Origin: Verrucomicrobiales bacterium
GTDB lineage: Bacteria > Verrucomicrobiota > Verrucomicrobiia > Verrucomicrobiales > DEV007
Length of the DNA: 35,181 nt
Reading direction: 5' to 3'
Assembly: GCA_029213065.1 (NCBI GenBank)
Contig: JARGPH010000012.1
Coordinates: 47,071 to 82,251 of the forward strand
Of this stretch, positions 32,423 through 35,181 are shown piece by piece; positions within the stretch are counted from its first letter, which is position 1; each line of letters starts with the position of its first letter. The notes under the pieces were generated by a model. It did not search any database, had not been told where the DNA came from, and worked only from the letters and a program-made list of their open reading frames with translations. The translations under genes and the position numbers were made by a program.

Positions 32423-33007
32423 ATGACCCCCGCTGAAGAAGCACCTCGTAGTACGTATGCATTCTCATTGATTGAGGTGGCAATTGCGCTGGCCATCTTT
32501 TCGTCAGGCATTCTCCTGCTGTTCTCAATGCTGCCGGGAAGTCTTTTCACGATGAAGGAGGCCTCCTCAAGGTCCATCGAAAGACGTATTGCAAGAAACC
32601 TCGTCAACGATTTGATGCTCAATGAATGGGAACGGCTTCATCAATTCGACAGCAGACAACTGGGTAGTCGACACTTCGATTCACAGGGCATCGAACTTTC
32701 TGAGTACGGGATGAATGCCATCTTCACAGCGAGAATCAAAATTCACTCTCGCGATGTAAATATTGATCCTGACAGAACACTGGAAGAAATCGATATCTCA
32801 GATTCCGGGGACTATTCGTTGCCGGATGACACCTACCTGGGAAAGTCAACAAGCCAGCACTCCAGGCGCATCACCGTTGAGATTACCGACGTGCCGCTTG
32901 AGACGTTTGACTTCGATGACCCGGAGAACGCTAAGCGCTTTCGGAGCTTCTCAACAGTGGTCGCAAACATGAAGGACACTGACTCGTTAAACAAACAGTT
33001 CCAGTGA
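32423..33007 (+). CDS. Verru_Chthon cassette protein B (pseudopilin-like)
   Basis: This 194-residue protein starts with a prepilin signal: a short basic leader, then AFSLIEVAIALAIFSSGILL with F at +1 and E at +5. The residue before the cleavage site is A, not the usual G. After the hydrophobic helix comes a soluble domain (SRSIERRIARNLVNDLMLNE). The order and type match the family found only in Verrucomicrobia/Chthoniobacter as part of a four-gene set. The stop overlaps the next ATG by one base (TGATG). The cellular role of the cassette is not known; a type II secretion/type IV pilus-like fibre or secretion device is inferred. Confidence 0.9.
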   Translation: MTPAEEAPRSTYAFSLIEVAIALAIFSSGILLLFSMLPGSLFTMKEASSRSIERRIARNLVNDLMLNEWERLHQFDSRQLGSRHFDSQGIELSEYGMNAIFTARIKIHSRDVNIDPDRTLEEIDISDSGDYSLPDDTYLGKSTSQHSRRITVEITDVPLETFDFDDPENAKRFRSFSTVVANMKDTDSLNKQFQ

Positions 33008-34047
33008 TGCGGAAAAACAGGATCACCCACCGCAGAGTCAGCTTTCGTCGAGCTTTTTCGTTGGTAGAGATGTTAGTCTCGATGGTGATTCTTTCCATCA
33101 TCATGGTCGCAGCCGCGACGATCCTCAAAACAACTCAGGAGGTTTGGACAACCTCGTGGGAGAGAACGTCACAATTCAGGGACGCGAGGCTCGCGTTCGA
33201 ACAGATCAGCCGAAATCTAAGCCAATCCACCCTGAACACCTACTGGGACTACGACTACTCGGGGAGTCAATCGAAGGCAGGCGTTCCGGGCGGATATCGC
33301 CGCGACTCCGAACTGCATTTCTTCACGGATGCTGCATCGCGCTTCATGGAGAATAGAAAGGCTGTCACTCATGCGGTCTTCTTCCAGGCCACGCTCGGTT
33401 ACACAAGAGACGAATCGTATGAACGGCTCGACGGCCTGCTCAACGGACTCGGGTATTTTGTCGAGTATGCTGACAACGAATATGGAAAACCGAAATTCCT
33501 CATCGCGCGCGAGAAAGGCAAAAAATCACGATGGCGATTTCGTTTGATGGAGTTTCAATCCCCGACCGAATTCAACACCGTCTACGAAGCGGACGAAGCG
33601 GGAGGTGATTCTGCAGCGAAGATCAGGGAATGGTTTTCCGCTGAGCAAATCGCTGCCTACAAGCGCCCTCTGGTTAACAATGTCATTGCCCTGATAATCT
33701 CCCCTCAGCTGAGTAGAGTTCCCGGAACCCCATCGTCGAGTGCATTGAGAATTGCGCCCCTCTATCGCTATGATTCACGAAACGCCTCCAATCCGGACAC
33801 GCTGAATGTCCTCCCTCCCCTCGTCAAAATAACCCTGGTGGCGATTGATGAAGCCGCGGCGATACGCCTCGAAGCTTCGACAAATCAGGGAAGCCCCCCG
33901 CGCCTCGTTTCACCGCAGTGGTTCAAGGAGGCAAAGAACTACGAGAAGGATCTCAAAGCCCTCGAGCAGTCACTCACTGAGCGCGGGTTGAACCACCGTA
34001 TTTTTTCAACAACCGTAGCGATTCGCTCTGCCAAATGGAGTACCTGA
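33007..34047 (+). CDS. Verru_Chthon cassette protein C (pseudopilin-like)
   Basis: The ATG at 33007 is coupled to the B stop; the GTG at 33004 is an out-of-context alternative. The 346-residue protein begins RRAFSLVEMLVSMVILSIIM, a prepilin helix with F at +1 and E at +5 (A before the cleavage site). The soluble part has the family's SQFRDARLAFEQISRNLSQS and TLNTYWDYDY motif. It resembles GspJ/PilW-type minor pseudopilins in size and position. It overlaps protein D by 13 nt. Confidence 0.9.
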   Translation: MRKNRITHRRVSFRRAFSLVEMLVSMVILSIIMVAAATILKTTQEVWTTSWERTSQFRDARLAFEQISRNLSQSTLNTYWDYDYSGSQSKAGVPGGYRRDSELHFFTDAASRFMENRKAVTHAVFFQATLGYTRDESYERLDGLLNGLGYFVEYADNEYGKPKFLIAREKGKKSRWRFRLMEFQSPTEFNTVYEADEAGGDSAAKIREWFSAEQIAAYKRPLVNNVIALIISPQLSRVPGTPSSSALRIAPLYRYDSRNASNPDTLNVLPPLVKITLVAIDEAAAIRLEASTNQGSPPRLVSPQWFKEAKNYEKDLKALEQSLTERGLNHRIFSTTVAIRSAKWST

Positions 34048-34670
34048 AATCAAAAGGTCCATGCAGCGCTGTAGAGGCAGGTGGTTTTTCACTGATTGAG
34101 ATTCTCGCTGTCCTCACGATCATTTCGTTGCTGCTCTCAATGAGCGTCATTGGAATCAATCGCATTACCGATGCCACGGATTTGACCAACAACGGGGATC
34201 AAATCGTGAATCAACTCGTTCAGGCCCGCCAGAGAGCGATCTCCGACAACGCCCATGTCGAGGTTCGTATTTACCCTCCACCGGAAGGCAACCGGATCAA
34301 AGAATGGACGCTGGTTCTGGCGAGGCAGGGGCTTAGTGAGACACCGGCACCCCTGCAGCAACCGCTCATTCTCAGCGAGAGCATCGCCATCAGCGAAGAC
34401 GGGGATTTCTCCACCCTTATCGCTGCACGAGAGCCGCAAAAAGATGAAGGGCTGATGCACTCCGCTTCGGGAACTGAACAGAAATACCACGGCTTCAGAT
34501 TCCACCCTGACGGATCGACTAACCTACCCGTAAATCCCAACGGAGATACCTGGCACCTCACGGCAGCTTCACGCAGAGATATCGAGAGGAACAAAGGCAC
34601 ATTGCCGGACAATTTCTACACGATCCGCGTCGATCCCTTCACCGGCGCGGTTCGCTCATTTCGCCCCTGA
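34035..34670 (+). CDS. Verru_Chthon cassette protein D (pseudopilin-like)
   Basis: A 211-residue protein with a canonical prepilin site (GGFSLIEILAVLTIISLLLS: G before F, E at +5). The soluble part has QLVQARQRAISDNAHVEVRI, in the style of GspH/FimT minor pseudopilins, and a C-terminal strand pair. It overlaps C by 13 nt and precedes A by 2 nt. Confidence 0.9.
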   Translation: MEYLKSKGPCSAVEAGGFSLIEILAVLTIISLLLSMSVIGINRITDATDLTNNGDQIVNQLVQARQRAISDNAHVEVRIYPPPEGNRIKEWTLVLARQGLSETPAPLQQPLILSESIAISEDGDFSTLIAAREPQKDEGLMHSASGTEQKYHGFRFHPDGSTNLPVNPNGDTWHLTAASRRDIERNKGTLPDNFYTIRVDPFTGAVRSFRP

Positions 34671-34672
34671 CC

Positions 34673-35181
34673 ATGAAACCGCCCCGGCCAGCCATGCATC
34701 AAAGGACCCGCGAAGATTCCGCGGGAGCGGCGCTCATATCCATTCTTCTGATCATGGCTTTGATGGTCGTGCTCGTCATGGCAATTGTTCTTCTGGCACA
34801 GTCAGAATCACGTTCATCGGCCGTCTATGAGAACCAAATTTCATCGAGAGATCTCTCAGACGTGGCAACCAATTTAGTCGTGAGCCAACTGCGTTCCGGC
34901 ACTGTGGGTAAATCGGAAACATGGGCAAGCCAGCCCGGTGCCGTCAGAAAATATGATGAAAAAGGGAACTTCCTCGCAGGCTACAAATTGTTTTCGGATG
35001 ACGACATGATCATCTCCGGGGAGGAGGAGTTTCTCAAGGATTTACCACCGGGAAACTGGCAGAAGGAAACGCAACACTTCGCTGACCTGAACGCCCCCTC
35101 GATGATGGATCACGATCTCATTTTTCCCATCATTGACCCGAGGGCGCTGGGAACCGTCGAGGGATTTAGCGTTGCCGAAAC
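34673..35181 (+). CDS. Verru_Chthon cassette protein A (partial, runs off the window)
   Basis: The ATG at 34673 opens a frame of 169 codons that is still open at the window end; no stop is seen. The N-terminus is AGAALISILLIMALMVVLVM, a PilX/GspK-type membrane helix without a classic cleavage motif, then SQPGAVRKYDEKGNF and the family's DPRALGTVEGFSV region. Protein A is the longest member in known cassettes, so most of it should lie to the right. Confidence 0.88.
   Translation, partial: MKPPRPAMHQRTREDSAGAALISILLIMALMVVLVMAIVLLAQSESRSSAVYENQISSRDLSDVATNLVVSQLRSGTVGKSETWASQPGAVRKYDEKGNFLAGYKLFSDDDMIISGEEEFLKDLPPGNWQKETQHFADLNAPSMMDHDLIFPIIDPRALGTVEGFSVAE

Follow-up and report, generated by a model that had tools for sequence, protein, structure and literature searches.

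The Verru_Chthon cassette as a probable minor-pseudopilin tip complex, with a giant GspK-like protein and an engine encoded elsewhere

At the right edge of a 35,181-nucleotide stretch of Verrucomicrobiales DNA (contig JARGPH010000012.1; G000:C1:47071-82251, hereafter the window) lie four closely packed genes of the Verru_Chthon families, here called B, C, D and A. G000 is the genome of the window; C followed by a number labels a contig, and L a fetched locus. Sequence matches and structural models suggest that the four proteins form the minor-pseudopilin tip complex of a machine of the type IV filament superfamily, the engine of which is encoded elsewhere. We put the probability of this reading at roughly 0.72. 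The cassette would appear to be the counterpart of the minor pseudopilins of the type II secretion system (T2SS) and type IV pili, with D corresponding to GspH, B to GspI/PilV, C to GspJ and A to a giant GspK. An earlier note, made from the sequence alone, had described a pseudopilin system of unknown function that borrows a machine; borrowing is indeed probable, but the nature of the system can now be given as GspH-I-J-K-like. The note had placed a B-C-D-A set at this edge, and its coordinates were correct:

32423..33007, + strand: B, predicted GspI/PilV-like minor pseudopilin, 194 amino acids (aa), Ala at -1, Glu at +5; TIGR02598
33004..34047, + strand: C, predicted GspJ-like minor pseudopilin, 347 aa, Ala at -1, Glu at +5; TIGR02599, fold
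34035..34670, + strand: D, predicted GspH-like minor pseudopilin, 211 aa; TIGR02596, GspH match
34673..35181, + strand: A, predicted giant GspK-like pseudopilin, N-terminal 169 aa, without Glu at +5; TIGR02600, GspK match

B and C overlap by 4 bp and C and D by 13 bp, while D and A are separated by 2 bp; C starts at GTG, or at ATG one codon further on, and A is truncated by the window end. Scored against NCBIfam, B (TIGR02598, 9.9e-21, 74.5 bits, cut-off 51.4), C (TIGR02599, 2.6e-99, 332.9 bits, cut-off 256.5) and D (TIGR02596, 1.4e-35, 123.1 bits, cut-off 70) all exceeded the curated cut-offs of their families. The 169-aa stub of A matched TIGR02600 (3.7e-34, 117.9 bits) under the cut-off of 332.3. 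Extension of the locus to the right, as the earlier note had proposed, completed A to 1459 aa, and in the whole genome the cut-off was then exceeded in two pieces, of 532 and 455 bits. This full reading spans a run of 10 N that starts right after the last base of the window (L009 3253-3262). The frame is preserved provided that the gap really measures 10 bases, which a near-orthologous locus, L153 (AH-707-L10, Verrucomicrobiales), suggests: its A is 86% identical over an alignment of 1459 positions. L153 retains the cassette, with B 76%, C 78% and D 68% identical, and most flanking genes on either side. With A taken at full length, the four adjacent genes score above the curated cut-offs of TIGR02596, TIGR02598, TIGR02599 and TIGR02600, and belong to the Verru_Chthon set.

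Matches to better-known families pointed to the individual pseudopilin types. In the window, D matched GspH at 4e-9, and the A stub matched GspK (NF037980) at 1.6e-7 through its N-terminus. B matched PilV (5.2e-6) and GspI (4.3e-3), and C matched several pilin models, with ComGF and ComGE (2e-4) preceding GspJ (6e-4). Members of each family (46 D, 26 A, 38 C and 47 B) were scanned against NCBIfam at E ≤ 1e-3. GspH was matched by 43 of the 46 D proteins and GspK by 23 of the 26 A proteins; for C, ComGE was found in 26/38 and GspJ in 20/38. All 47 B proteins matched TIGR02598, with further matches to PilV (20), XpsI (19) and GspI (12). The kinship of B with GspI and of D with GspH lies in sequence only, chiefly in the N-terminal region and under the equivalog cut-offs, and B is also PilV-like.

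The prepilin-like N-termini reported for the window's proteins are real, and their details were compared in a sample of 44 cassettes from 8 genomes, each collected as a C gene at E ≤ 1e-20 with its surroundings. A motif with Glu at +5 was present in 41/41 B, 44/44 C and 44/44 D proteins, under a search pattern that itself demands Glu; two of the D matches fell on a neighbouring spurious motif, and the true motif, read by eye, also carries Glu. In A the motif was placed in 41 of 44 proteins and read by eye in the other three, and none had Glu at +5. Three of the placed A motifs have an odd residue at -1, which was left unchecked. GspK likewise lacks this Glu (PMC7541494). The earlier note had drawn attention to Ala instead of Gly before the cleavage site in B and C. 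That is true for the window, but nothing special. Across the 44 cassettes, the two of the window's genome included, Ala occupied -1 in 10/41 B and 20/44 C proteins and in roughly half of the D proteins (Ala in 20 and Gly in 22 of those placed, the two mis-set ones being read by eye), and A carried Gly in 38 of the 41 placed. A hand count in ordinary T2SS stretches gave Ala in 9 of 38 pseudopilins. As a special trait Ala at -1 was rejected, since it is common both in the cassettes and in ordinary T2SS pseudopilins.

AlphaFold2 models were compared to known chains by plain Foldseek and then by VIA-align. The model of the window's C (mean confidence score, pLDDT, 87.7) aligned with ten GspJ-type entries (TTHA1219, EpsJ, XcpW and GspJ) at Z 9.8-11.4, the next unrelated chain reaching 4.5. 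These alignments covered 144-189 residues at root-mean-square deviations (rmsd) of 3.7-5.5. Plain Foldseek placed TTHA1219 and GspJ in the top two rows (E 0.055 and 0.066), and TTHA1219 has been described as closest to XcpW/GspJ (PMC5131608). The modelled fold decides an assignment that the sequence matches had left mixed, and indicates that C has the GspJ fold.

For A, a relative of 1195 aa from locus L177 was modelled (pLDDT 84.3). VIA-align gave GspK (3ci0_K) at Z 9.8 and rmsd 3.9 over 262/280 residues, with the next row at 4.9. The match spans model residues 29-1195, and an insertion at about 505-779 is weakly like C2 and other beta-sandwich domains. On this model, A appears to be a GspK core interrupted by long insertions. 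Among the 44 A proteins of the cassette sample, in L177 numbering, conservation peaked at 201-250, 351-400 and 901-1000 and reached its minimum at 701-750 and 1001-1050; other members have their longest insertions at 486-745. A measures 1178-1751 aa in 43 of the 44 cassettes; in the remaining one, L123, it is split across two frames, and the median of all 44 is 1366 aa. Pfam gave no match above cut-off on A proteins.

The earlier description of the set as lineage-restricted was borne out. TIGR02600 matched none of 14 control genomes. An alignment scan of the GTDB collection with A returned 362 relatives, where a single-protein scan of the same collection had returned none; the best 80 of the 362 were kept and gave 77 distinct loci, all titled within Verrucomicrobiota. 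The C model scored above cut-off in 8 of 387 sampled genomes of the phylum, and these eight, scored in full, held the 44 C genes of the sample, 39 of them above cut-off. All 44 cassettes had A, C and D nearby, and 41 had B. Gene order was A-B-C-D in 22, B-C-D-A in 8, B-C-A-D in 6, D-B-C-A (equivalent to H-I-J-K) in 4 and B-A-C-D in 1, with B missing from the other 3. Together with the 77 loci found through A, and after removal of 4 duplicates, the sample comprised 117 distinct loci, 92 of which carried the complete four-gene set in shuffled order. Of the A-derived loci, 55 had all four genes, 10 a partial set and 12 A alone, most of the last group being cut by contig ends on one or both sides. 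A check of whether A is invariably accompanied by B, C and D showed that it is not.

Many copies occur per genome. Seventeen of the 44 C genes, and hence 17 cassettes, belong to one genome, G217. In a tree of 99 C proteins these copies needed 12 label changes, a number not exceeded in 84 of 500 shuffles. Because they are scattered over the tree, several pairing with a copy from genome G066, the G217 copies are old, separately maintained paralogues. The window's genome has a second full cassette, on C4, in the order A-B-C-D, and in addition two divergent H-I-J-K sets (L030 5189-10876 and L031 5409-10942), whose GspK-like proteins measure 1144 and 1179 aa; in the second set the I-like member is weak. 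A secreted-looking protein comes after each divergent set. A further 11 of 80 class genomes gave only partial matches to the A profile, in frames of 1028-1594 aa. Judged by such matches, giant GspK-like proteins seem to reach beyond the named cassette. Two giant A genes stand in tandem in L134 (8012-16938), L148 (8192-16646) and L149 (9968-15822); the pair precedes B-C-D in L134 and L148, and L149 is cut by a contig end. It is possible that such pairs represent two tips served by one B-C-D set. A lone prepilin-type gene also lies on the window's contig (L046 4643-5182; G000:C1:134642-135181); the 10 kb retrieved on its account showed no further prepilin-type gene.

Engine genes were sought in the flanks, about 9-10 kb per side where the contig permitted, with ATPases, the GspF platform protein, secretins and PilM from the window's genome as queries. 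As a positive control the queries recovered 17 frames in 7 loci. None matched in the 44 cassette stretches or in the two divergent sets, GspG not being among the queries. Two of the 77 further loci had a machine gene nearby, a tandem ATPase pair in L196 and a secretin in L145, giving 2/117 distinct loci overall. The flank search thus agrees with the earlier note that no ATPase, platform protein or secretin is nearby, though a secretin operon lies some 15 kb past A. The note had named, as the finding that would overturn it, ordinary minor pseudopilins of a complete T2SS operon next door. The proteins are indeed minor-pseudopilin-like, but no such operon adjoins them.

The genome-wide search for GspE/F/D-type partners and a prepilin peptidase, also proposed in the note, found a tandem-ATPase/GspF locus, a secretin operon, a T2SS cluster and one prepilin peptidase gene. 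The secretin/PilM operon is of the Amuc_1098-1101 type (L045 8047-14556; G000:C1:101046-107555); its secretin and its homologues of Amuc_1099 and Amuc_1100 score above cut-offs, and its Amuc_1101/PilM homologue below (605/650 bits). Two adjacent GspE/PilB-type ATPases were found in all eight full-cassette genomes, followed by GspF in 8/8 and by a GspG-like pilin in 7/8 (in G078 the search pattern found none). In the window's genome this locus is on C73, where the ATPases score slightly better as PilB than as GspE, the platform protein as GspF and the pilin as GspG, all below cut-offs. A motif search detected no credible minor-pseudopilin motif in the tandem-ATPase stretches of the eight genomes; the same kind of search detected at least three pseudopilins in 12 of 14 ordinary T2SS stretches. 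The T2SS cluster of the window's genome, on C47, has GspF, a GspG above its cut-off, minor pseudopilins and a 312-aa GspK, and the other seven genomes have comparable GspE-GspF stretches with pseudopilins.

Because there are many cassettes per genome, away from any complete engine, the engine is probably shared and encoded elsewhere. The tandem-ATPase locus is a candidate for it, its complementarity with the cassettes being suggestive only. We would give about even odds that the engine is this unlinked tandem-ATPase/GspF/GspG-like locus, perhaps in combination with the secretin complex of the Amuc_1098-1101 type. A single prepilin peptidase would remove the leaders of the four proteins, and A, B, C and D would assemble in the inner membrane and prime a filament built of a major pseudopilin whose gene lies elsewhere. 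The complex would ride at the filament tip with the large domain of A outermost, contacting substrate or surface. A single engine would then be fitted with alternative tips from the several cassettes, comparable to the situation in Myxococcus xanthus. A more speculative extension, which we regard as doubtful at present, is that each cassette serves as an exchangeable tip with a giant GspK that recognises a cargo of its own, in many cases a large beta-strand-repeat/PEP-CTERM protein encoded alongside, so that in one Verrucomicrobium up to 17 tip/cargo pairs would be served by a single tandem-ATPase machine.

Genes that could encode such cargo were counted in the 117 loci. For beta-strand repeats, a model was built from TIGR02601 stretches of scanned neighbours and frames of at least 300 aa were counted. 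Such a frame lay within 700 bp in 19/117 loci, on the same strand in 18 (that in L115 being weak), and farther off in 10 more; none was found in 23 background stretches of G217 (444 kb), which are not a random sample. PEP-CTERM-like ends lay within 700 bp in 18/117 loci (19 genes, 3 on the opposite strand); at greater distances, in flanks totalling 1.54 Mb, 17 loci held another 19, a few of which look spurious. The same background held 2, one of them credible. Either type was within 700 bp in 28/117 loci, including 12/17 in G217 and 5/8 in G066, counts in which some neighbours are cut by stretch ends and orthologous loci are not independent. Seven neighbours, picked from large ones, were scanned, and all seven had TIGR02601 repeats and six a PEP-CTERM domain. 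Neighbours directly beside cassettes occur in L084, L085, L087, L089-L091, L094, L099, L101, L105, L106, L146, L169, L198 and others. Many of the adjacent ends read PEPxR (VPEPGR) and not PEPST, possibly the mark of a distinct sorting class, possibly no more than a feature of the family Verrucomicrobiaceae. In L100 (10961-17347) the A frame continues upstream with no intervening stop and reaches a PEP-CTERM-like tail (VPEPGR...RRRR); this may be a fusion or a sequencing artefact, and it was excluded from the adjacent count.

Several findings weigh against the tip-complex reading or parts of it. No match to a Gsp or Pil equivalog model attained its curated cut-off, and among the 38 C proteins more matched ComGE (26) than GspJ (20). 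For A, plain Foldseek of the L177 model returned mostly C2 and other beta-sandwich domains, with no GspK among the top 50 and nothing at E ≤ 0.001; GspK came first only with VIA-align. An hhalign comparison of the A profile with ordinary GspK aligned 48 N-terminal columns only (probability 25.8, E 7e-4), and the profile matched no PDB sequence at E ≤ 10. The equation of A with GspK depends on the N-terminus and on the model of one relative, not on the window's own A, and that relative is 45% identical to the near-orthologue in L153. Three loci (L157, L163 and L170) hold a solitary giant A with no credible pilin motif in about 10 kb on either side. The two full cassettes of the window's genome have no neighbour of the candidate cargo types. 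As for the engine, the first tandem ATPase was present in 19/19 genomes matched by the A profile, but also in 48/61 not matched by it (E ≤ 1e-149, a threshold set afterwards), and exclusive co-occurrence with the cassette was rejected. In Spartobacteria LR76 some 3 kb separate one cassette from a tandem ATPase pair on the opposite strand (L196 16749-20136), and on contig C32 of G234 a tandem ATPase is about 14 kb from a cassette; by a rough estimate such physical linkage is within chance. Finally, the engine could instead be the ordinary T2SS, part of which is encoded on C47.

Of the alternatives, a surface role survives best, and we consider it possible but not favoured. Here the cassettes would cap true surface type IV pili used in adhesion or in DNA uptake, giant A standing where PilY1 or ComZ does, and would not belong to a periplasmic secretion pseudopilus; the identity of the tip would stay the same and only its use would differ. 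B scores better as PilV than as GspI, though the T2SS model XpsI was matched nearly as often, and the slight preference of the tandem ATPases for PilB, all under cut-offs, points the same way, as do the pilus-type secretin operon and ComZ, a GspK-like pilin of the tip whose large inserted domain binds DNA (PMC6561018). However, D scores as GspH and A as GspK, and the platform protein fits GspF slightly better than PilC. The large secreted-type neighbours in some genomes also fit secretion at least equally well.

It is less likely, and in our view rather unlikely, that the engine is the ordinary T2SS of the genome (GspF-G-H to K, on C47) and not the tandem-ATPase locus; the identity of the tip would be unchanged. 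The C47 cluster, with GspF and a GspG above its cut-off, and the GspE-GspF stretches with pseudopilins in the other seven genomes would allow it. Yet C47 already has its own minor pseudopilins, including a GspK of normal size, and none was seen at the tandem-ATPase locus. It is very improbable that the proteins use a prepilin signal but act outside any filament, as envelope-anchored surface proteins, for even with no engine gene found alongside 115/117 distinct loci and some A genes solitary, four tip-type pseudopilins together, a Glu+5 pattern separating H/I/J from K, and GspJ and GspK folds would be hard to account for without a filament.

The tip-complex reading would give a named but unexplained cassette a concrete molecular identity. 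In the literature collection searched, neither the cassette name nor TIGR02600 occurred in any paper, and none was on the cassette, by title and start of abstract, among Verrucomicrobia papers on pseudopilins, minor pilins or PEP-CTERM/type II secretion. One report describes 67 PulG-like copies in a single genome, the term 'cassette' being absent from the part available (PMC13274419). The design implied is that one engine may take many specialised tips, and substrate choice by the tip would then be testable. Export of the many PEP-CTERM proteins of Verrucomicrobium, 65 of them in V. spinosum (PMC1569441), might also run by such a route. If true, the tip/cargo pairs would link type II-like secretion to PEP-CTERM surface display.

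Among known systems, the Verru_Chthon A-D families (TIGR02600, TIGR02598, TIGR02599 and TIGR02596) are the same families as those described here, under names that carry no function. The T2SS GspH-I-J-K tip (3ci0; XcpUVWX) resembles the cassette in having four prepilin-type subunits, in the GspJ fold predicted for C and the GspK fold predicted for a relative's A, in the lack of Glu at +5 in A as in GspK, and sometimes in an identical gene order. The GspIJK/XcpUVWX tip offers the analogy for B, C and A, together with D, starting and capping a pseudopilus (PMC6211770). The cassette differs in having no surrounding T2SS operon, many copies per genome and scores below the Gsp equivalog cut-offs, and in the size of A, 1178-1751 aa against about 300 aa for T2SS GspK, or about five times the usual. 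In Myxococcus xanthus three minor-pilin/PilY1 clusters serve one machine, and like the cassettes they are several alternative sets of four minor pilins; there, however, PilX is accompanied by a separate PilY1, whereas in the cassettes the GspK itself is giant and up to 17 sets occur (PMC7541494). ComZ/PilA2 of Thermus thermophilus is, like A, a GspK-like tip pilin whose pilin fold takes up a large inserted domain (PMC6561018). In ComZ that domain is a beta-solenoid of about 380 residues, whereas A appears from models to carry several insertions, one of them weakly beta-sandwich-like.

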